NCBI GenBank assembly: GCA_947369165.1
Contig: CANBKJ010000014.1
Coordinates: 1-45,035 of the forward strand
DNA length: 45,035 nt
Direction of reading: 5' to 3'
Source of the DNA: an uncultured Lachnoclostridium sp.
Lineage (GTDB): Bacteria > Bacillota > Clostridia > Lachnospirales > Lachnospiraceae
This document shows, one piece after another, positions 14,615 to 45,035 of the stretch. Position 1 is the stretch's first letter; every line of letters begins with the position of its first letter. Below the pieces are notes generated by a model. That model was not told where the DNA came from and searched no databases. It saw only the letters and a program-made list of their open reading frames with translations. Position numbers and translations under genes: made by a program.

Positions 14615-14659
14615 ATGATACAAAAATTTATTGACTTTTGTTGAAGATTGGTTCATAAT
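14615..14659 (+). promoter_or_regulatory. promoter and GATACAAA box of surface protein 3
   Basis: TTGACT (14631-14636), 17-bp spacer and CATAAT (14654-14659), preceded by AAATGATACAAAAATTTA. The surrounding 60 nt are close to those before proteins 4 and 5. Confidence 0.8.
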
Positions 14660-14701
14660 AATTATATTCCTAAAACAATACATAAAGGAGGGATTAGGCT
14701 A

Positions 14702-16756
14702 ATGAAATTAAGAAAGGCCATGGCGGTTGCGCTGGCTGGTGCCCTTGTTTTAACGACATTTGCTACAGGTACTACGAGTGAAGCTGCCAAAAAGACGAAG
14801 CTGAAGACGAAAAAAGTCTCTATCTACGTCAAAGGAAAGAAGAAAATTTCCATTACGGGTAAAAAGGCAAAGCACAAATACACCTTTACATCCAAAAAGA
14901 AAAAAATTGCCAAAGTATCCAAGAAAGGTGTGATCACCGGAGTAAAAGCCGGAAAGACGACCATCACGGTAAAAGACACCTGGAAACAGAAAGGCAAGAA
15001 GAAAACCAAGAAACTTGGTACGATCAATGTAACTGTTAAGAAGAAAACAACTCCAAAGCCAAAGGTTACAGCGCAGGTAACCCAGGCACCGGCACCGCAG
15101 CCACCTGCACCACAGGTATCTCAGGATCCAAATGGCGGTGGATCACCGACGACGCCACCAGATGCTACCCAGACACCAACAGCACCTCCGGCGAAAACAT
15201 CCAAACCGCCGAAAACTCAGCCACCTACACCTGTACCTACACCGACTCCTCCAAGCCGGGAAGAGCAGCAGCCAACGGAATATTTCCCAGCAAATATGGC
15301 AGAAGTAGAACAGGTGGATGGCGTAACATATGATCCTGAGACAGGTTATATCACCGTAAAGGATGTAGAGCAGTTCTGCATTCCTCTGGGATATACAGTT
15401 AAGAATGGTCATGCCATCTGGGTAAAGATCAAAGGAAGAATGAATGGTGAGCAGGGATTCAGAAGCTGGATGGTCAATGATATGGCTAATAAGACCACCC
15501 TTTCTGATCAGTGGGAAGCTAAGAATGAAGAAGGTTTCCAGGCTCCAGGTGAGTTTGATTACACATTCCAGCTGTTATCCGAGTCAGATGATGTAACTTG
15601 TCTGCTGATCAAGGGACCAGTTTATGGAACAAATATTGATGATCTTCTTATCACCTCTATCGAGATTTCCTATCCGCTGGGTGAAGGCGGTTCAACGAAG
15701 CCGGATCCAGATGAGCCGACGGTTAATATGGACCTTGAAAAGCATACGATCACAGCAGGCAGCAAGACAACTGCAGAAGTTTCTGCAAGTGCAGGTCAGA
15801 TCAAAGAGGTAACCTGGTCTGTAGAAGATGAGACTATTGCTACTGTAGAGAAAGATGCTCAGGATGCTAAGAAAGCAACGATCACGGGCGTGAAGGCAGG
15901 CGAGACGAAAGTCACTGCTGAGGTAAAAGTGACTGTAGAAGGAAAAGACTTTACTGTTACAACAGAAAAAGATCTTAAGGTTGCAGAAGAGGGAGCCCTG
16001 GTTGTAAATGCTTCCATCGAGAGCGCTCCAACCGAGGTGATCGTTGGAGAAACTGCTGAATTGAAAGTGACTGTAGATACTGGCACAATCGAGAGTGTCG
16101 TATGGAAGGTTGAAGGCGATGCAGCAACCATTGAGACGGATTCTGTAGAAGCTGTAAAGGCTGTACTTAAGACTGTCAAAGTTGGTGAAGTAACTGTCTC
16201 TGCTACTGTAACAGTTAAGAAAGATGGCAAGACAGCGACAGATACAGCGAAGGTGACGATTAACGTTATTAAAGATCCGACGGATATCATTGAGATTGAT
16301 ATTACTAAGAATATTTCTATAGCCGGATGGGGAAATAAGGCAACCTATGAAGTACAGTCTGATGGGTCTGTTAAAATTACCTGGCCTGAAGGCAGCGATA
16401 ACTACACATTTTGCAAGTTTAGCTTTAACCCCATGATTCTGACAGGATACTATTGTGTTATTGACGCAGAAGGGCACTATACCAACGTAGATATTCAAGA
16501 TGCTGAGAAAAAAGAGCCTGACTGGGGAAATCCACTCTCTGTTACTAAGCCAGCATATGGGGTAACTTTCCCATATACGGTAAAGCTGGATGATGAAGTG
16601 TTGAATACGGATATTACTGCCACAGATGGAACCAAGGCTGATTACACGAATGTTGGTGGAGTGAATATCTACAAAGGAACTGAGACAGAAGAATTCTCTC
16701 TTACTATAAAATCAATCAAGTTCTATAAGTATGAGGAAGACATTCCAAAAGCATGA
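14702..16756 (+). CDS. secreted multi-domain Ig-like surface protein 3
   Basis: A 684-residue paralogue. It has a signal peptide and Lys-rich module almost identical to protein 2, a Pro-rich linker (about 117-185), a beta-sandwich homologous to the first one of protein 1 (same run VEQVxGVTY and GYxVxxGHAIWVK), two Ig-like domains (335-525) and a C-terminal beta-sandwich (530-684) that is shared with protein 4 and not with 1, 2 or 5. The frame is open upstream to 14648, but ATG 14702 has AAAGGAGGGATTAGGCTA before it and starts the signal peptide. The C-terminal domain keeps many aromatic residues and ends KSIKFYKYEEDIPKA, suggesting a ligand-binding sandwich; the ligand is unknown. Confidence 0.88.
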   Translation: MKLRKAMAVALAGALVLTTFATGTTSEAAKKTKLKTKKVSIYVKGKKKISITGKKAKHKYTFTSKKKKIAKVSKKGVITGVKAGKTTITVKDTWKQKGKKKTKKLGTINVTVKKKTTPKPKVTAQVTQAPAPQPPAPQVSQDPNGGGSPTTPPDATQTPTAPPAKTSKPPKTQPPTPVPTPTPPSREEQQPTEYFPANMAEVEQVDGVTYDPETGYITVKDVEQFCIPLGYTVKNGHAIWVKIKGRMNGEQGFRSWMVNDMANKTTLSDQWEAKNEEGFQAPGEFDYTFQLLSESDDVTCLLIKGPVYGTNIDDLLITSIEISYPLGEGGSTKPDPDEPTVNMDLEKHTITAGSKTTAEVSASAGQIKEVTWSVEDETIATVEKDAQDAKKATITGVKAGETKVTAEVKVTVEGKDFTVTTEKDLKVAEEGALVVNASIESAPTEVIVGETAELKVTVDTGTIESVVWKVEGDAATIETDSVEAVKAVLKTVKVGEVTVSATVTVKKDGKTATDTAKVTINVIKDPTDIIEIDITKNISIAGWGNKATYEVQSDGSVKITWPEGSDNYTFCKFSFNPMILTGYYCVIDAEGHYTNVDIQDAEKKEPDWGNPLSVTKPAYGVTFPYTVKLDDEVLNTDITATDGTKADYTNVGGVNIYKGTETEEFSLTIKSIKFYKYEEDIPKA

Positions 16757-17045: not shown

Positions 17046-18632
17046 ATGAGGATAAGAAAAGCCATGGCGGTAGCACTGGCTGGTGCTCTTGTTTTGACAA
17101 CAATGGCAACAGGAACTACCAGTGAAGCTGCCAAAAAGACGAAACTTAAGACGAAAAAAGTTTCCATCTTCGTCAAGGGGAAAAAGAAGATTTCCATAAC
17201 GGGTAAAAAGGCAAAACATAAATACACCTTTACATCCAAGAAGAAAAAGATTGCCAAAGTATCCAAGACTGGTGTGATCACTGGAGTAAAAGCTGGAAAA
17301 ACTACGATCACGGTGAAGGATACCTGGAAACAGAAGGGCAAGAAGAAAACGAAGAAGCTGGGAACGATCAAGGTAACTGTTAAGAAAAAAGCAACTGTAG
17401 CACCAAAGGTTACACCAAATGTAACACAGGCACCGCCGGTTCAGACACCAATTGTAACGCAGGCACCGCCGGTTCAGACACCAGACGGTGGATCATCTAC
17501 ACCGACGCCGACGAATAAGCCGACCAACAAGCCGACGAATAAGCCAACCAACAAGCCGACATCAGCGCCGACAGAGAAACCAATCCCGACACCGACAGTT
17601 GAGATGAGTCTTGAGAAGAATCAGATCAAGCCGGGAGACACAACTACAGCTATGGTAGCTGTAAGTGCCGGTGAAGTGAAAGAGGTTACCTGGTCTGTGG
17701 AAAAAGCAGATGTTGCGGCTGCAGAGAAGGATGCCAAAGATGCTAAAAAAGCTGTGATCACGGCGAAAGCTTCAGGAGAGACAAAGATCACTGCTGAGGT
17801 GAAAGTGACAGTAGAGGGAAAAGAGTTTACTGTAAAAGCAGAGAGCAGTATTAAAGTTGCCGCAGTGGTTGTAAATCCATCCATTGAGACAGATTCTATA
17901 GAGGTAAATATAGGTGAGACCGTAGATCTGGCAGTAAATGTAGATGTAGAGACCAGCATGATCGAAAGTGTTGTGTGGACGGTGGAAGGTGATATTGCCA
18001 CTGTTGAGACGGATCCTGTAGATATCACGAAAGCTACTCTTACAGGTGCTGTGAGAGGTAAGGCAGTTGTTACGGTTACTGTTACAGTAAAGCAGGGTGA
18101 TGAGACTGCCACCAATACCGCAACAGTGAATCTCGAAGTCATTCAGCCAATCATTGAGATTGATCTCTCTACAGGTATTACGACACCTTCCTGGTTCTCA
18201 GGAGTGTCAGGTGAAGTACAGGAAGATGGTTCTTATAAGATTACCTGGGCAGAGGATTCAAGTGACTGGGCATCTGCAAAGTTTAACTTTGACGGTATGG
18301 ATCTGACAGGATACTGGTGCGTGGTTGATGCTGAGGGATGCATCGCTACGATGGAGATTCATGACAAAGAAAAGAAAGAGACAGAATACAGCAATCCATA
18401 TTCTGTTACGCAGATCAAGTATGGCCAGACATTCCCTTGGGCACTTCAGCTTTCACCGGAGAATTTGAATACTGCTGAAGTTCAGGGTGGCGGTGTAGCA
18501 GATTACACCAATGTTGGAGGAGTACAGTTTGCCAAAGGAGATCAGAAAGAAGAATTAGTTCTTACTGTGAAATCTATCAAATTCTATAAATATGAGAAAG
18601 ATATTCCTGCTGGTTTTCTTCCAGAGGCATAA
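17046..18632 (+). CDS. secreted multi-domain Ig-like surface protein 4
   Basis: A 528-residue paralogue. After the signal peptide and Lys-rich module comes a linker with four TNKP repeats (about 150-170), two Ig-like domains (185-365) and a C-terminal beta-sandwich (366-528) clearly homologous to that of protein 3 (shared LTGYxCVxDAEG, DYTNVGGV and KSIKFYKYE). It lacks the first beta-sandwich of proteins 1 and 3. ATG 17046 follows AAGGAGGGTTCAGGCGA. The TNKP repeat is a simple repeat that could change copy number by slippage. Confidence 0.88.
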   Translation: MRIRKAMAVALAGALVLTTMATGTTSEAAKKTKLKTKKVSIFVKGKKKISITGKKAKHKYTFTSKKKKIAKVSKTGVITGVKAGKTTITVKDTWKQKGKKKTKKLGTIKVTVKKKATVAPKVTPNVTQAPPVQTPIVTQAPPVQTPDGGSSTPTPTNKPTNKPTNKPTNKPTSAPTEKPIPTPTVEMSLEKNQIKPGDTTTAMVAVSAGEVKEVTWSVEKADVAAAEKDAKDAKKAVITAKASGETKITAEVKVTVEGKEFTVKAESSIKVAAVVVNPSIETDSIEVNIGETVDLAVNVDVETSMIESVVWTVEGDIATVETDPVDITKATLTGAVRGKAVVTVTVTVKQGDETATNTATVNLEVIQPIIEIDLSTGITTPSWFSGVSGEVQEDGSYKITWAEDSSDWASAKFNFDGMDLTGYWCVVDAEGCIATMEIHDKEKKETEYSNPYSVTQIKYGQTFPWALQLSPENLNTAEVQGGGVADYTNVGGVQFAKGDQKEELVLTVKSIKFYKYEKDIPAGFLPEA

Positions 18633-18659
18633 GCACTATGTGTAAGTGATCATATGTAA

Positions 18660-38848: not shown

Positions 38849-39058
38849 TTATTTGCAGAATTGTTTATCAAAATCCGGGTTAAATGCGTAGAAGTTTTTG
38901 CTGTTCAGACTATCCTGGATCAGACGCAGGCTCTCACCGAAACGCTGATAGTGCACAACTTCACGCTCTCTTAAGTATTTGATGGGATCACAGACTTCTG
39001 GATCTTTTACAAGACGGAGAATATTGTCGTAGGTCAAACGCGCTTTTTGCTCTGCTGC
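38849..39058 (-). pseudogene. cotJC: cotJC C-terminal part (spore coat, Mn-catalase-like), interrupted
   Basis: Minus-strand reading gives AAEQKARLTYDNILRLVKD, then DPIKYLREREVVHYQRFGES and a 24-residue tail: the C-terminal third of the spore-coat protein CotJC. Homology starts exactly at the AA encoded in GCAGCAGAG (39058-39050). The six residues before that do not fit the family, and the frame closes upstream at a TGA (39094-39092). The middle part of the gene is at 44123-44355. Joining the two at the shared 8-bp core gives EDMAAEQKAR, the expected family sequence. The gene looks split by an inserted element, not randomly decayed. Confidence 0.85.
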
Positions 39059-39098
39059 TACCTGGTAAGGATAACGCGCGGGAATTTGACATCAAAGA

Positions 39099-39158
39099 TT
39101 GACAATGCTATTTCATTAAGGTACACTTAAATTGATATCTTAAACTTACGTGTACCTT
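39099..39158 (+). promoter_or_regulatory. promoter with overlapping inverted repeat
   Basis: TTGACA (39099-39104), 17-bp spacer, TACACT (39122-39127). AAGGTACAC (39118-39126), which covers most of the -10 box, is repeated inverted as GTGTACCTT (39150-39158) just before the ribosome site. This looks like an operator or leader hairpin for the Ig-like cargo gene. Confidence 0.6.
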
Positions 39159-39174
39159 AAAAGGAGGCTGAAGG

Positions 39175-40563
39175 ATGAAAAAAAGCATTATGAGAAAAGC
39201 TGCATGGGCGATGGCAGGCGCACTGATGTTTACAAGTGTGTTGGGAAGCAGTATTGTGTCACAGGCAGCACCAAAGACGAAAAAAATCGTCATGAACAAA
39301 AAGAAGGTCACATTAAAAGTTGGAAAAACCTTTAAATTAAAAGTAAAAAAGGTTAATCCTGCAAAATCAAGCAAAGCGGTAACTTATAAATCAAACAAAA
39401 CAAAAATAGCAACTGTGTCAAAAAAGGGTGTGATCAAGGCAAAGAAAGTTGGAAAAGCAAAGATCACAGTGGTTTCAAAGAAAAACAAGAAAGCAAAAGC
39501 AACGGTAAGCGTAGTAGTCAAGAAGGCTGATGCTAAGCCTAAAGTACCTGCTGTGACAGCCGTGCCGGCGGTAAGTGCGACACCAGGGGTAAGCGCAGCA
39601 CCAGGGACAACGCCATCTGTAACCCAGGCGCCGGGGACCAGTGCAACACCAGAGTCCAGTTCAAAGCCGGGAGCGAGTGCGACACCACCGAGAACGCAGA
39701 CTCCAAAACCACCAAAGACAGCTACACCGTCGCCGACACCAAAATATGAAGAACCTGAAGAGACGGCGCCGCCAACTAACTTTGTTGATCTGACATCCGA
39801 TGATTCATATCATAATGAATCTCCAGAGGGCGCAACTGTTGTAAAAAATGAGGATGGTTCCCTTACTGTAACATTTACACAGCAGTGGGCTGCACTTAAT
39901 TTCTACCTGCCGGATAACGCTCAGATTTATTACAGTGCTTACAAGTCTGTTGCTCTTACGTACACAAGCAGAGGTGGAAATCTCGGTCATGCGCTGTATG
40001 ATGTGGATACGATAGTGGGAGGTTCCCAGGCAGGAGATGGTGAAGTAGGGAAACATCCGGACTGGGGTCAGAAAGTGGTGGAGACTGCGGAAGAGAGTAC
40101 ACTGATCTTCCCTGTGACATCAGAGTGTGCAGGGGGATGTATCCGTGGATTGCAAATATTTAATCCTAATGCAACTACAGCAGATAATCCTATCGAGATC
40201 ACGATTAAAGCAATTGTATTCAGTGTCAAAGAAAATCCGAGTCTGGACGACCTGAAACCGCCTGTCAAACCGGAACCGAATGATAATGTTACGATCGAAT
40301 CTGCCCCGACTGAGATGGCGGTATCTGAAACCTCTGATATAACCGTAGCAGTAAAAGAAGGCACCATTGAGAGTGTTAAATGGGAGGTAGAGGGCGATGC
40401 AGTAACGATCGCAAAAGATGATGAGATTAAAACAGTTCTCACTGCTGCGAAGGCTGGGGAAGCGAAAGTATCGGTGACTGTAACAGTGAAGATTGGAGAT
40501 AAAACAGAAACGAGTACAAAAACCGTAACGATTCAAGTAAATAATCCTGCCAAAAAAGAATAA
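39175..40563 (+). CDS. secreted Ig-like surface protein 6 (element cargo)
   Basis: A 462-residue secreted protein. Signal peptide (1-31, SQAA), Lys-rich bacterial-Ig-like module (32-118) more diverged than in the array, Pro/Thr/Ala linker (119-200), a beta-sandwich domain (about 203-350, starts VDLTSDDSYHNES), and one Ig-like domain (365-460). That last domain closely resembles those of the array (IESAPTEMAVSE, GTIESVKWEVEGDAVTI, TVTVKIGDKTETST against IESAPTEVIVGE, GTIESVVWKVEGDAATI, TVTVKKDGKTATDT of protein 3). It is carried inside the cotJC element with its own promoter and terminator. ATG follows AAAAGGAGG. Confidence 0.88.
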   Translation: MKKSIMRKAAWAMAGALMFTSVLGSSIVSQAAPKTKKIVMNKKKVTLKVGKTFKLKVKKVNPAKSSKAVTYKSNKTKIATVSKKGVIKAKKVGKAKITVVSKKNKKAKATVSVVVKKADAKPKVPAVTAVPAVSATPGVSAAPGTTPSVTQAPGTSATPESSSKPGASATPPRTQTPKPPKTATPSPTPKYEEPEETAPPTNFVDLTSDDSYHNESPEGATVVKNEDGSLTVTFTQQWAALNFYLPDNAQIYYSAYKSVALTYTSRGGNLGHALYDVDTIVGGSQAGDGEVGKHPDWGQKVVETAEESTLIFPVTSECAGGCIRGLQIFNPNATTADNPIEITIKAIVFSVKENPSLDDLKPPVKPEPNDNVTIESAPTEMAVSETSDITVAVKEGTIESVKWEVEGDAVTIAKDDEIKTVLTAAKAGEAKVSVTVTVKIGDKTETSTKTVTIQVNNPAKKE

Positions 40564-40590
40564 CAGAATTTAATTTATTTTGAAATGGAA

Positions 40591-40620
40591 TGTCGGGGTG
40601 CATAGTGCCCCGGCATTTTT
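40591..40620 (+). terminator. terminator after surface protein 6
   Basis: TGTCGGGG (40591-40598) pairs with CCCCGGCA (40608-40615), one G-U pair, followed by TTTTT. Confidence 0.85.
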
Positions 40621-40684
40621 GCGTACTATGGGAACCCCTTTTTTCATACTATGTATAAAGAAATACAGATGCAGGAGGCCAGAG

Positions 40685-40816
40685 ATGCGCAGCAAAAACC
40701 AGGATTGTATGTGTGAATCTGTTTTTAAAGGTGCAGTAGACGAGGAGATCAGATCCAGGTATATACAGGTCTTAGTAAAATATATCATGCAGCAGGAAGA
40801 GAGTAAGAGGATGTGA
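40685..40816 (+). CDS. small protein coupled to the serine recombinase
   Basis: Not recognised. 43 residues (MRSKNQDCMCESVFKGAVDE at the N-terminus, then a basic helix to EESKRM). The start ATG 40685 has AGGAGG about 6 nt upstream. The frame is open further back, but without a ribosome site. Its stop overlaps the first possible recombinase start (ATGTGA), so it is translated with the recombinase. It could be a directionality factor or accessory protein; nothing in the sequence proves this. Confidence 0.6.
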   Translation: MRSKNQDCMCESVFKGAVDEEIRSRYIQVLVKYIMQQEESKRM

Positions 40817-42402
40817 GGGAGAGGAAGTTAAATACGATGGCAGAGCGACCAATGGCAGCAATATATGCGAGATTATCCGAAGAGGACAGAGTAAAGAATA
40901 ATTGGCAGAATAATAGTTCGAGTATCATAAATCAGGTTATGTTATTGAGACAGTATGCGGAGCAGATGGGCTGGGATGTGTATGAATGCTATACGGATGA
41001 TGACTGGGCGGGGGCAGACAGAAGCCGCCCTGCATTTAACCGATTGCTAAGAGATGCTGAGCAGGGCAGGTTTAACATTGTCTTATGTAAAACCCAGAGT
41101 CGTTTTACTCGAGAACTGGAGATGGTTGAGAAATATATCCATGGGCTGTTTCCCCTCTGGGGCATCCGTTTTGTGGGAGTTGTGGATAATGCAGATACCA
41201 GCGTAAAAGGGAACAAAAAATCCCGTCAGATCAATGGCCTGGTAAATGAGTGGTATCTGGAAGATATGTCAGAAAATATTAGGGCAGTTCTCACTACAAG
41301 GCGACAGGAAGGTTATTATATTGGTTCTACACCCTTGTATGGATATCGCAAGGATCCAGAGAGAAAGGGGCATCTGATCGTGGATCCGGAAGCTGCCGAA
41401 GTTGTGAAACTGATTTTCCATTCATTTGCCAATGGAATGGGAAAGACAGCCATCGCCAGAATGCTTAATGAGAAGGGGATTCCGAATCCTACAGAGTATA
41501 AAAGGCGAAAAGGAATGATAAAGAAAGCGCCGCGGCATAAAGCAGGAACCCTCTGGAAATATTTTTCCATTGCCGATATTCTGGGCAATGAAATGTATAT
41601 CGGCAATCTTATACAGGGGAAATACGGAAGTGTCTCTTATAAGTCGAAGAAAAATAAACCAACACCGAAAGAGCGGTGGATCCGCGTAGAGCACACACAT
41701 GCCCCCATCATTGATAAAAATCTTTGGGATACGGTTCAGAAGATGATTCAGGAGAGGGCAAAGCCTTTTTCGACAGGTGAGATTGGATTGTTTGCCAAAA
41801 AGGTGAGGTGTAAGCACTGTGGGTATATCATGCGTTCCGGGAAAGGGCGCGGTAGACACTATCTGAAGTGTAGCAGCAGGCACGTGGCCAAAGATAGCTG
41901 TATAGGCTCATTTATTTATGTGGATAAATTAGAAGAGATTGTCCTTGAGGAAATGCGGAGAATCAATAAGAAATTTTTGGATGAAAAATGTCTGGAGGAT
42001 GAAATTATCATCCAGGAGACTCCGCTTGAGAATATAGAGAAATGGAAACAACAATGCAGTTATGAGAGACATAGAATGGATCAGTTGAACACCGCAATAA
42101 AAAATCTGTATCTGGATAAAGTAAAGGGTAATATCGATGCAGAACAATTTCAGGTGTTATACTATGAACTGGATTCGGATAAAGAAAATGCGAAAGGGAA
42201 GATAAAGCAACTGGAGCAGAAGATCGAACAGGTTCAGCTTAGGAGTAGCGGTCAAAGGAAAAAAAGAGAGATTGTCCAGGAGTATGTAAATCCCTTTAAA
42301 CTCAACCGCTCAATGGTGGAGCTGCTCATTGATCACATCGAGGTTTCCAGGCGTGATCTGGAGACTAAAATGATAAATATAGAGATCCACTGGAACTTTT
42401 AA
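40813..42402 (+). CDS. large serine recombinase
   Basis: A 529-residue recombinase (521 if ATG 40837 is used; that ATG follows GAGAGGAAG). Order: resolvase domain with the catalytic Ser in YARLSEEDR and the conserved SRFTRE; recombinase domain with ILGNEMYIGNLIQGK; a zinc ribbon (CKHCGYIM ... CSSRHVAKDSC); and a C-terminal coiled coil (about 400-480). Enzymes of this class join attP and attB at a short core in one direction and need an accessory factor to reverse. It is the only integrase in the 5.07-kb element and faces no other mobile genes. All catalytic parts look intact, so it is probably active. Confidence 0.95.
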   Translation: MRERKLNTMAERPMAAIYARLSEEDRVKNNWQNNSSSIINQVMLLRQYAEQMGWDVYECYTDDDWAGADRSRPAFNRLLRDAEQGRFNIVLCKTQSRFTRELEMVEKYIHGLFPLWGIRFVGVVDNADTSVKGNKKSRQINGLVNEWYLEDMSENIRAVLTTRRQEGYYIGSTPLYGYRKDPERKGHLIVDPEAAEVVKLIFHSFANGMGKTAIARMLNEKGIPNPTEYKRRKGMIKKAPRHKAGTLWKYFSIADILGNEMYIGNLIQGKYGSVSYKSKKNKPTPKERWIRVEHTHAPIIDKNLWDTVQKMIQERAKPFSTGEIGLFAKKVRCKHCGYIMRSGKGRGRHYLKCSSRHVAKDSCIGSFIYVDKLEEIVLEEMRRINKKFLDEKCLEDEIIIQETPLENIEKWKQQCSYERHRMDQLNTAIKNLYLDKVKGNIDAEQFQVLYYELDSDKENAKGKIKQLEQKIEQVQLRSSGQRKKREIVQEYVNPFKLNRSMVELLIDHIEVSRRDLETKMINIEIHWNF

Positions 42403-42419
42403 AGAATCCGGTGGATCTC
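42382..42419 (+). terminator. hairpin overlapping the recombinase stop
   Basis: GAGATCCACTGGA and TCCGGTGGATCTC flank the stop codon (12 of 13 pairs). There is no T run, so it may be an mRNA 3' structure instead of a strong terminator. Confidence 0.5.
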
Positions 42420-42425
42420 TTGATC

Positions 42426-42463
42426 TTAGCTTGACGGCCCCGATTTGAACCCGTCGAGCTAAA
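42426..42463. repeat. imperfect palindrome, REP-like
   Basis: CTTAGCTTGACGG and CCGTCGAGCTAAA form arms around CCCCGATTTGAAC. It resembles the palindrome at 31695-31747 (TTAGCT/AGCTAA ends, TTTGAA core) and lies between convergent genes. Confidence 0.45.
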
Positions 42464-42517
42464 TACCCGAAGGTACTATTGTGTTAAATAATGTGGAGAT
42501 ATCATAAAATAATCGTA

Positions 42518-43879
42518 CTAGTTTCGCGCCGCATGCAGAATCTGTTCCAGATCGGCAATCAGTCCCTTGGAGAATTCCTCTGCTTCTCTGTATATCTGAC
42601 CAGCCTCCGTATAAGAACCGCTGTTTAATGCCTCGATGATGGTGGCTCCATACTGGTGGAATTTTCTATGCTTCATCTCCAGTGCTTCCCATACTGGCAT
42701 AATAACTGGAATCCGTGGTTTTACAGCATAGTAAAAATGCCCAAATCCGCATTTTGTGGAATCCAGCTGCAGCGGTGTCACATTATGAGTCTCAACCATA
42801 TTTCTCAGATTATTGAGCCATGTTCGGTGGGCAGTAATAGCATCCCTGACATATTTGGCAAATTCCGAATTTTCTAAATGATAGAAAGCGTCCTGTGACA
42901 TGAGTCCCATCTGCTTTGCGGTGGCGTCCAGAGTCTTCTCAATGCCAACGACAGGTTCAACCGCTTTTTTCAGATCTTCACTGACTTGATTCATAAAGCT
43001 GGTGCTGTTTCTAAGCTGATTTTCCATTTCATTCATAGAACTGCTGATATACTCGCTTACCTCAGCGATCGAGCGAATGGAATCATTGACTCTGGAAACA
43101 CTCTGCTGGCTCTCCCTGTTCAAATCCCATACATAGTTAATCTTCTTGGACATATCTTCCAGCGATTCAACGGTATTTGAGGCGCTTTGTACACTTTTTT
43201 CAGAAGCCTCTTTGATGGTCTCCACAAACTGCTCCATATCACTGGTCAGTTTCTGTGTCTCTCCGGCTAATGTACCGATTTCTTCCGCCACAACAGCGAA
43301 GCCTTTTCCTGCTTCCCCGGCTCTTGCCGCTTCAATGGAGGCATTTAATGACAACAGGTTTGTCTGCAGAGAGATGGCATTGATTCCGGCAATAACATCA
43401 CTTATGTACTCCAGTACCTGCAGTAATTTATCCATATCTTTTTGTAATTCCAAAGAGATATCGATGGTCTGCCCGGAGAGATCCCGAATGGTTGTCAACT
43501 CGTTTTGTCCCTCCTGAATTTTTTCAAAGACATCATTGGTATCAGAAGATACCTTAACGATCGTATTTGTCAGCTGTTCATGCTGATTATTATTTCTTCC
43601 ACTGGCAGGATCTGCAGAAGAGCCGAAAATGGTCTCTGTAGCGTTCGCTACGTTGCGGGAGATATCAACTATTTTTTCTGTCTGATACTGCATGGTCAGG
43701 TCAAGAGAACTAATCTGCATAACGGCTTTAATATTTTTCTCAAAAATTTCTCCAAATTGTCTTCTACCGCTTTGTAATCGCTCATAAATATTCTGCAGAT
43801 CCGCATCTTTTGTATAATCTGCTTCTTTCATTTCGGAAACTGCTTTTACAAGCGCAGCTTTACTCGTTTTAAGTGCCAT
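42518..43879 (-). CDS. soluble chemoreceptor with CZB domain (element cargo)
   Basis: A 453-residue cytoplasmic methyl-accepting protein without membrane segments. The signalling hairpin contains [40 protein letters not shown] (about residues 160-200). A C-terminal zinc-binding CZB domain has the ligands in [17 protein letters not shown] and KHRKFH (about 345-430). It is of the same kind as the receptor at 30236 but clearly diverged. It lies inside the cotJC element, opposite the recombinase, and has a sigma-28-like promoter upstream, so it should be made with the flagellar regulon. ATG follows AAAAAGGAG on the minus strand. Confidence 0.92.
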
Positions 43880-43948
43880 TGGTCATCTCCTTTTTACAAT
43901 TTTTTCCCGCCAGCATATTTTGGACGCAAGTGTCTGTATTTTCGTTGC

Positions 43949-43975
43949 TTATCTGCTGCGGTTTTTTTTCCTTGA
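43949..43975 (-). promoter_or_regulatory. sigma-28 (flagellar) type promoter of the chemoreceptor
   Basis: On the minus strand, TCAA (43975-43972), 15-bp spacer, GCAGATAA (43956-43949), against consensus TAAA-N15-GCCGATAA. It lies 70 nt before the start codon. The other about 150 nt up to the cotJC fragment hold no gene. Confidence 0.6.
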
Positions 43976-44106
43976 GACAGTCCGGTATATATATCTGCAT
44001 AACGGAACTAAGTATATACTTTCATAATAAGGGATTCTGAATATTTTGCAAGCTTTTTTTTCATTTTTTTAATGGTATTTTTGTGAAATTTAATCTCAGG
44101 TTGTTC

Positions 44107-44355
44107 TTATAAAGAAGCAGCGTCTGCTGCCATATCTTCGTGCAGGTCTGCCAGGGGATCTCCTGTGGACTGGATCATGGATGCGCTCCATGGTTCACCT
44201 GAAGCTGCCTGAGGCCACAAACCAATGGTGTGATCGATATAATAGGGGGCAAAACCTTGTTCCTGAAGCTCTTCAGCAGTAAGATTTTTCGTGAGCTGAT
44301 GGACGATGGCGCATACGATCTCCATGTGAGCCAGCTCTTCTGTACCTATATCCGT
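44107..44355 (-). pseudogene. cotJC: cotJC middle part, interrupted at both ends
   Basis: Minus-strand reading from TDIGTEELAHMEIVCAIVHQ (with GTEELAHME holding manganese-ligand positions) to GDPLADLHEDMAA is the middle of CotJC, about 78 residues. After the core GCAGCAGA (44130-44123) it ends in DAASL and a stop, which are element-derived. On the other side, homology breaks between 44355 and 44356; the codons beyond (PWGNTD) do not fit the family, and the N-terminal about 60 residues are absent from the window. Confidence 0.85.
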
Positions 44356-44450
44356 GTCGGTATTGCCCCACGGCGAAATGACCGAAAATACGGGGGATGT
44401 GGCGTTGTGGGAAATGGGATGAGGAGCAAGAAGGAAAAAAACCAGTAAAT

Positions 44451-44579
44451 ATGAAATTATCTTATATCCAACGTGGCTTAGGAAAGTTAGATAATGATAG
44501 ATTACAGAAGGCGGAAACGGTCTTAAAAGCTGTATTTGAGGATATTTTTGATGAAGAGGAGGACCACGGTGACTTATAA
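44451..44579 (+). CDS. short protein resembling the tail of an XRE regulator
   Basis: 42 residues, starting MKLSYIQRGLGKLDNDRLQK and ending in the acidic FEDIFDEEEDHGDL. This resembles the C-terminal tail of XRE-type regulators that commonly precede ImmA. No helix-turn-helix is present, so it may be a remnant or a free-standing small protein. A weak ribosome site (GAAGGAAAAAA) lies upstream. It overlaps the ImmA start by 11 nt. Confidence 0.45.
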   Translation: MKLSYIQRGLGKLDNDRLQKAETVLKAVFEDIFDEEEDHGDL

Positions 44580-45033
44580 ACCAAATTTTAAGAAAGCATA
44601 TATTTTAGCAAATGAAATACTACTGAAATCTCGAATAATAAATGCTTTTCCGTTTTCGGTTACCAAATTAATCAAAGAGATATCAGATATACAATGTTGC
44701 AGTTTTAAAAGAGCACAAAAATATAATGTTGATATTGAAGCATTTGGAAGTGATTCAGCAATTTTGACAGAATTTCATGGAAGACAAATTATTTTTTATA
44801 ATCAGTTCGATATTGATGAAAGAGTTCGATTCTCAATGCTCCATGAAATTGGTCATTGTCTTTTGGATCATAATATGGATACATGTAATAAAGAACTATA
44901 TAAAAAGCAAGAGATTGAAACAAACTTTTTTGCAGCGCAGCTTCTTATGCCTGAACAAACCCTGTTAGAATTACAGAGTCGAGGTAAAAACATTGATTAT
45001 TTTAAAGTCTTTATTTCAGATGAGATACAATAA
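44569..45033 (+). CDS. ImmA/IrrE-family metallopeptidase
   Basis: 154 residues. The zinc motif HEIGH in MLHEIGHCLLDH is followed by ETNFFAAQLLMPE with the third ligand Glu. ImmA cleaves phage or ICE repressors (ImmR/XRE) to induce the element. GTG 44569 has GAGGAGG 7-8 nt before it; a TTG at 44536 gives a longer frame with no ribosome site. The end (SRGKNIDYFKVFISDEIQ) is shorter than most relatives, which continue with a helical wing, so a frameshift near 45000 or a natural short form is possible. It ends two bases before the window edge. Confidence 0.85.
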   Translation: MTYKPNFKKAYILANEILLKSRIINAFPFSVTKLIKEISDIQCCSFKRAQKYNVDIEAFGSDSAILTEFHGRQIIFYNQFDIDERVRFSMLHEIGHCLLDHNMDTCNKELYKKQEIETNFFAAQLLMPEQTLLELQSRGKNIDYFKVFISDEIQ

Positions 45034-45035
45034 CG

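Follow-up and report, generated by a model that had tools for sequence, protein, structure and literature searches.

Two breaks in cotJC at the window locus

The stretch analyzed here (the window) is contig C14:1-45035 of the uncultured Lachnoclostridium genome G000, 45,035 nucleotides long, and it holds the spore-coat gene cotJC in separated pieces. Matches to PF05067 (CotJC) were restricted to 44116-44355 and 38906-39064, both on the minus strand and both above the Pfam cut-off. These two same-strand matches flank a gap and bear out the original prediction that cotJC is split by an interval of about 5.07 kb. The predicted TCTGCTGC was found at both junctions (39051-39058 and 44123-44130); this 8-mer occurs five further times elsewhere in the window and is therefore weak evidence when taken alone. 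The junction was also in frame as predicted: the joined flanks read ...GDPLADLHEDMAAEQKARLTYDN... in a single frame, which restores EDMAAEQKAR, in agreement with EDLAAEQKAR of an intact cotJC paralogue on contig C52. The symmetry of the attachment sites attL, attR, and attP refined the crossover dinucleotide to the GA of codon 136 (Glu136; window 39052-39051 and 44124-44123).

The upstream piece had been taken for the N-terminal one, which turned out to be incorrect. CotJC homology also ends on its 5' side, at the Gly62 codon, and the piece is really the middle one. This second break lies at the GG of codon 62 (44346-44345), 5' of GTEELAHMEI. The window thus contains the middle piece (44123-44346, minus strand; codons 62-136, GTEELAHMEI...EDMAA), assigned by its CotJC match and by sibling comparison, and the 3' piece (38849-39052, minus strand; codon 136 to stop, EQKAR...FCK), assigned by tblastn, Pfam, and the ratio of nonsynonymous to synonymous differences (pN/pS). 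The attR of the second element (site 2a; 44345-44369, minus strand) consists of an element arm followed by the GG of codon 62, as judged from sibling comparison and attP symmetry in the siblings. Three-piece siblings identified 44347-45035 as the end of this element, which runs past the window end; its attL is missing in the window. An open-ended open reading frame (ORF) inside it (44536-45033) has an IrrE N-terminal-like (Peptidase_M78) domain.

The CotJC profile A1 was run over the 40 genomes behind loci L002-L041. Five sibling genomes (G001-G005) have three cotJC pieces, covering codons 1-62, 62-136, and 136 to the end, and two elements. The pieces are ordered on the same strand of one contig in G002:C3, G003:C90, and G004:C9, and likewise in G011; in G001 and G005 they are spread over several contigs. 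The joins are in frame at both breaks. At L007, CotJC homology continues to the full N terminus with cotJB in front, and cotJB is also found upstream of cotJC in the siblings L089, L091, L092, and L093. The site-2 element of G002 has its own, different recombinase (540 aa). A site-2 type recombinase of G000, 91% identical to that of L089, is located on contig C71. At C71 11349-13950 (L172), the sequence between this gene and the contig end is other DNA and not the expected cotJC 5' piece; the arrangement may be a rearranged or larger element.

The codon-136 element (site 3; 39052-44124, 5.07 kb) was delimited by flanks that rejoin in frame. Its attR (39051-39075, minus strand) comprises the element arm (gttatccttaccaggta), GCAGCA, and the crossover GA, assigned from the attR arms and attP symmetry. 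Its attL (44100-44130, minus strand) reads GCAGCA-GA, followed by an element arm ending in ataagaacaac, an inverted repeat of the attR arm. The element carries, as had been claimed, one intact serine recombinase; it is a large one of the site-3 group (40813-42402, plus strand, 529 aa), and its domains run in the order Resolvase, Recombinase, Zn-ribbon (PF00239, PF07508, PF13408). The ATG at 40838 may be a likelier start. In a domain scan of six other recombinases, L113 alone gave no Zn-ribbon match. The described cargo, a chemoreceptor and a surface protein, was likewise recovered: a 453-aa methyl-accepting chemotaxis protein with a CZB domain (42518-43879, minus strand; PF00015, PF13682) and a 462-aa Ig-like Big_2 protein (39175-40563, plus strand; PF02368). 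No phage gene was found among the three large ORFs of the element. Directly 5' of the recombinase, a family hidden Markov model (HMM) marked a 43-codon ORF (40685-40816, plus strand), a candidate recombination directionality factor (RDF). A pattern search placed a promoter-like pair with a mother-cell-type -10, GTACTAT-15-CATACTATG, at 40623-40653 (plus strand).

Distribution, crossover sites, and recombinase groups

The family sample comprised 100 evenly drawn Lachnospiraceae genomes, each at least 90% complete. CotJC was matched at 1e-10 or better in 62 of them. The gene was split in 22 of the 62, 20 with complementary pieces and two one-sided (G118, G126), and an intact cotJC copy was absent in 18 of the 22. 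Complementary pieces shared a contig in eight split genomes (G000, G082, G091, G101, G105, G116, G117, G161). Excluded from the count were G158 (ambiguous, at a contig start), G108 (frameshift), and G102 and G177 (near full length). As a control, spoIIR was matched in 51 of the same 100 genomes and never lay in separated pieces; the match in G160 was limited to 17 residues, and in G174 and G177 two stretches fell within one ORF.

In the class sample, CotJC was matched in 81 of 118 genomes (G303 and G336 only via a remote paralogue). Complementary pieces were found in 20 genomes and one-sided pieces in seven (G239, G253, G262, G269, G270, G278, G317); G242, G282, G283, G290, and G319 were unclear and left out. 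The genus sample gave a CotJC match in 25 of 39 genomes and a split copy in 15, one of them one-sided (G208).

Four cotJC pieces lie over several contigs in G069 and G075. The single contig of G247 carries pieces 1-33, 30-58, and 61-198 in order; the middle one (L155 3802-3888), with an element on each side, is about 90 bp of coding DNA that starts at codon 31 and reaches about codon 60. Two pieces are 157 kb apart in G256 and 87 kb apart in G116, both single contigs. In the single-contig G342:C1, the pieces at 225389-225487 (minus strand) and 452986-453492 (plus strand) are 227 kb apart (L158, L159). The site-1 att pair of G342 is symmetric at 13 of 18 positions, and the genome is listed at 11% contamination; recombination there would be predicted to invert 227 kb and rejoin cotJC. 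In G129:C68, the part covering codons 53-202 is duplicated 3 kb apart (14651-15103 and 18191-18643), with a single 5' piece on another contig. In a few loci, contig ends seem to cluster at att sites, which might hint at mixed populations.

Both flanks of site 3 were available in 23 loci. The site was split in 18 (14 distinct genomes, four fetched twice) and uninterrupted in five (L082 and L087, which are one gene, L101, L111, and L113). The symmetry of the attP arms reached 0.61 when centered on the GA of codon 136, compared with 0.15-0.35 at 12 other offsets. At both bases of this GA, attL equaled attR in 18/18 split loci. A similar symmetry method centered site 1 on the GG of codon 31 in 9/9 pairs, site 2a on the GG of codon 62 in 12/13 pairs (G200 was tied with codon 64), and site 2b on the GA of codon 65 in 4/4 pairs. 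For site 4, the GA of codon 175 was best in only three of five pairs. No clean center was obtained for G247 site 2 or for G341, which has an odd break near codons 55-59, and the method gave no result for L093/L094, G201 site 2, and G209. The G254 attP was symmetric at 18/18 positions. At least five crossover sites are used within cotJC, every assigned center is in codon phase 0, and the predicted attP sites are inverted repeats around GG or GA. A palindromic GC center had been considered as the cause of the two recombinase orientations; it was dropped once the symmetry put the center at GA.

The CotJC profile matched the manganese catalases 6j42 and 1jku. The di-manganese ligands, which we take to be Glu35, Glu66, His69, Glu148, and His181, presumably correspond by offset to CotJC residues 35, 65, 68, 136, and 169. 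On this assumed mapping, sites 2b and 3 fall on ligand codons and the other sites within six codons of one.

A tree was built from 45 recombinases taken beside junctions (site 1, n = 5; 2a, n = 13; 2b, n = 4; 3, n = 16; 4, n = 7). For each site, the recombinases stood together on one side of a branch (support 100/99 or 100/100); the five site labels required four changes, the minimum. The site groups are separated by long branches. Because the site-3 rows were gathered through their similarity to the window recombinase, part of their grouping is built in; those of the other sites came mostly from loci fetched by junction, with the pick made by junction and score when several recombinases were present. 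The recombinase adjacent to site 1 in G247, that of G341, newer loci, and fragments in L099 and L150 lie outside the tree. The G247 recombinase runs counter to a rule of one group per site: it is unlike the site-1 queries and has its best score, 101 bits, against the site-2a query. The window recombinase retrieved 80 loci, and in 75 of these a cotJC piece lay within the fetched flank; the genomes of the five exceptions (L036, L041, L055, L068, L074) still have cotJC pieces ending at these sites.

Selection on the pieces and candidate signals for excision

The cotJC pieces are under purifying selection as strong as the neighboring clpC. The pN/pS was 0.013 for the 5' piece (among five relatives, the window not included), 0.018 for the middle piece (window plus five relatives), and 0.024 for the 3' piece (window plus four relatives), with pS values of 0.22-0.38. 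In the same lineage, clpC gave 0.021 (window and four relatives). The element genes gave 0.187 for the recombinase (six sequences), 0.201 for Big_2 (four), 0.324 for the chemotaxis protein (six), and 0.390 for the small ORF (six). An intact cotJC paralogue of another lineage, located at G000:C52 7647-8249 and also intact in G001-G005, gave 0.046 across five same-genus genomes and 0.054 between the window genome and G002.

A split gene under such constraint should yield a protein. With a short list of Shine–Dalgarno (SD) patterns, none of 72 site-3 3' pieces had an in-frame start with an SD-like site within 120 bases upstream, and the pieces therefore seem unable to make protein unjoined. This count excluded 39 named loci (intact genes, other sites, and mostly repeat fetches); L161, one of these, is a distinct site-3 piece.

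An empty counterpart was found in G198, of the same genus. Its locus L139 has an intact cotJC with both sites empty, reading LTDIGTEELA and EDMAAEQKARL. Its protein is the most window-like among the loci fetched, as judged by sequence without a tree, and its DNA is 79% identical to the window in the middle piece and 78% in the 3' piece. The original prediction had proposed looking for a relative whose intact cotJC matches the expected scar, and L139 does so at the protein level; its DNA differs from the 20-base scar at one synonymous base.

The small ORF directly 5' of the site-3 recombinase has about 45 codons and the consensus C.SVFK.G...FT.KWIELIN.LEK.K. Its HMM, built on eight seeds that were themselves among the tested loci, matched 83 of 85 site-3 loci (missing L128 and L129) and 0/85 control windows. 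In the C. difficile skin element, the small RDF CD1234 (72 aa) drives excision, according to the available text of PMC5025042. By place and size, the small ORF is a candidate directionality factor by analogy. At other sites, too, a small ORF immediately precedes some of the recombinases (L089, about 15380-15610, and relatives; L114, L115, L118), for example MKKETFDQ... at site 2a of the window siblings. By eye, these ORFs are unlike the site-3 one, and they make further RDF candidates.

The GTACTAT-15-CATACTATG pair ends 31 bases before the small ORF. The pattern had one match in the window and none in 100 shuffles, and it was exact in six of seven window-lineage loci (window, L002-L005, L007), with two mismatches in L006. 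A CATAnnAT box was found 5' of 22 of 85 site-3 recombinases, compared with about 8-10 expected and a maximum of 19 in 200 randomizations; this enrichment is no more than suggestive. Promoters of sigma-E and sigma-K in C. difficile have a CATA-type -10 in common and are told apart at -35 (ATA or AC), and two operons there that contain cotJC homologues (cotCB, cotD) depend on sigK, with lowered expression in its mutant, as stated in the available part of PMC3789822.

Viral records were inspected as well. Phage records searched with site-3, one site-1, and one site-4 recombinase gave matches all below 60% identity; the queries did not include sites 2a and 2b. CotJC matched mainly unannotated faecal fragments among phage records. 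Nine viral contigs carried a site-3 type recombinase: six have a cotJC piece, in two the contig stops at the recombinase or within it, and the ninth, L128 (44% identity), has no cotJC beside it. Two of the nine had no terminal repeat at their ends. The attP arms were not found across the joined contig ends of G180. L124, L125, and L127, predicted viruses of IMG/VR, contain part of the host's cotJC (about codons 63 to 136), so that a coat gene of the host falls inside the called virus boundaries.

Probable excision during sporulation and known intervening elements

According to the literature, cotJC is a sporulation gene. It encodes a manganese-catalase-like spore-coat protein, which agrees with the PF05067 profile and with the five metal ligands as mapped by offset. 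The 5.07-kb element has the build of a skin-type element: it lies inside a sporulation gene, its precise removal would restore the frame, and it carries its own recombinase. It belongs to a site-specific family, one of at least five whose members interrupt cotJC in a large share of the Clostridia. We consider it likely that the split gene is rejoined by excision of both elements during sporulation; the excision itself, its mother-cell timing, and the role of the small ORF are what we infer here. We prefer this skin-like explanation because of the in-frame junctions, the element-borne recombinase, the empty-site relative L139, and the clpC-like selection. The proposal of a new developmentally excised element is thus the best fit to the data, given the in-frame joins, the element's own recombinase, L139, and selection. 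It was incomplete in that two elements are involved.

The two elements would have inserted at codons 62 and 136. Each would have been placed by the large serine recombinase that it encodes, at a crossover of 2 bp (GG or GA) inside codons at or near metal-binding motifs. During sporulation, and probably in the mother cell, which is terminal, attL would be recombined with attR by the recombinase and the small directionality protein. The element would leave as a circle, with the reading frame of cotJC restored, and the germ line (forespore and vegetative cells) would retain it. In a bolder form, which we favor somewhat, cotJC would be a DNA-spliced gene: up to four pieces joined in the mother cell by two or three unrelated recombinases (an AND gate), with five ancient groups independently specialized on its metal-ligand motifs, and some chromosomes needing an inversion of hundreds of kb.

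Several results weigh against rejoining during sporulation. No excised junction or circle was found; the attP pattern (strict, with few examples behind it) had no match in viral_contigs, and each species is represented by a single genome in the genome collections. Codons 1-61 are absent from the window and were not found in assembly G000, and the 5' piece does not lie beside the site-2 type recombinase on C71. In the split family-sample genomes other than the eight listed above, the pieces are on different contigs and the call rests on the piece ends. G342 and G075 (G075:C23) have pieces on opposite strands, which simple excision would not rejoin. Adding the more distant intact L139 raised pN/pS to 0.041 for the middle and 0.076 for the 3' piece, about the level of the intact paralogue or somewhat above, and loss of the split gene might be tolerable in the window genome given the C52 paralogue. 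The -10-like motif is present at a minority of recombinases (22/85), and the lineage searched for the promoter pattern is the one that had supplied it. Its AC-to-CATA spacing in the window, 18 bases, exceeds what we take to be the sigma-K spacing.

Excision might also be real but unlinked to sporulation, taking place constitutively or by phase variation in a fraction of the population. We regard this as unlikely, yet deserving of some weight. The yin element in yabG is a precedent, being excised at all time points in the available text of PMC10747680; a clear mother-cell-type -10 occurs only at a minority of recombinases; and the small ORF adjoins the recombinase, so the two could be expressed jointly. 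The mother-cell-type promoter retained before the cassette in the window lineage speaks against it. We consider it improbable that the elements are parasites for which cotJC is just a conserved site of attachment, the gene being dead until the element moves. A single target gene can serve many large serine recombinases that are only distantly related, as described in the accessible text of PMC10083194. Five distant groups converged on cotJC, the occupied sites vary between related genomes, and in some genomes a second copy is intact. Drift would be expected of a dead gene, however, whereas the pieces stay at a clpC-like pN/pS despite pS values of 0.22-0.38, and most split genomes of the family sample lack an intact copy.

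The conservation of every piece would also be expected if the pieces were made as separate polypeptides assembling in trans, but this is very improbable. Separate translation of the 3' pieces was rejected on the start-site count (0/72), the crossovers lie at or near metal-ligand codons, the attL tails append element-coded residues, and the breaks fall at five or more different places. An assembly or binning artefact is scarcely credible. Many carriers are metagenome-assembled genomes, the 5' piece of the window is missing, and the pieces are mostly on different contigs in the family sample; nevertheless, identical junctions recur in unrelated assemblies and in strain-titled records (L052, L060, L061), and we rejected this explanation on the single-contig genomes G116, G247, and G256 and the spoIIR control. 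L052 belongs to the cultured commensal Parablautia intestinalis D8-82, where the element measures 7.2 kb, and L061 to Diplocloster modestus ASD4241, likewise cultured.

If cotJC is rejoined during sporulation, the system makes testable why mobile elements choose late mother-cell genes; such a gene would suit an element because excision there costs no descendant. It also offers dozens of natural recombinase–site pairs with short predicted att sites. Gut genome annotation may label a functional coat gene as several fragments.

In cyanobacteria, interruption elements of heterocyst genes encode recombinases that rejoin the genes in a terminal cell type, and some genes have more than one element. 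They differ from the cotJC elements in pathway and hosts. The skin element in sigK of B. subtilis and C. difficile resembles the cotJC elements as a serine recombinase element in a sporulation gene with in-frame rejoining. In cotJC, however, the target is a coat enzyme and not a sigma factor, several elements and sites are found per gene, the three large ORFs of the 5-kb element include no phage gene, and the candidate RDF lies directly 5' of the recombinase. The known sporulation intervening elements listed in the available text of PMC5595907 and PMC10747680 are in sigK, spsM, spoVFB, gerE, and yabG. The gin element in gerE of B. cereus ATCC10987 is likewise non-phage and is excised in sporulation by GirC and GirX; in the accessible part of PMC5595907, it is a 28.6-kb element with three recombinases at one site, whereas each cotJC site has its own recombinase group. 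Similarly, yin (yabG), SPbeta (spsM), and vfbin (spoVFB) interrupt sporulation genes, but they are described there as prophage-like, with one element per gene (PMC10747680). Among the open PMC matches listed, no title or abstract start reported an element inside cotJC (subscription papers and preprints lie outside this set). In the open PMC full text available, cotJC, serine recombinase, and excision co-occurred only for C. difficile phi027. That mobile element also lies beside a CotJC homologue (CDR20291_1465), but the gene is described as downstream of attR and not split in the text available (PMC11222575). Programmed rejoining of sporulation genes had been known in only a few instances, each gene being described with a single element. 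The coat gene cotJC, by comparison, is split in about one third of the sampled cotJC-bearing Lachnospiraceae, at five or more sites and with site-tied recombinase groups.

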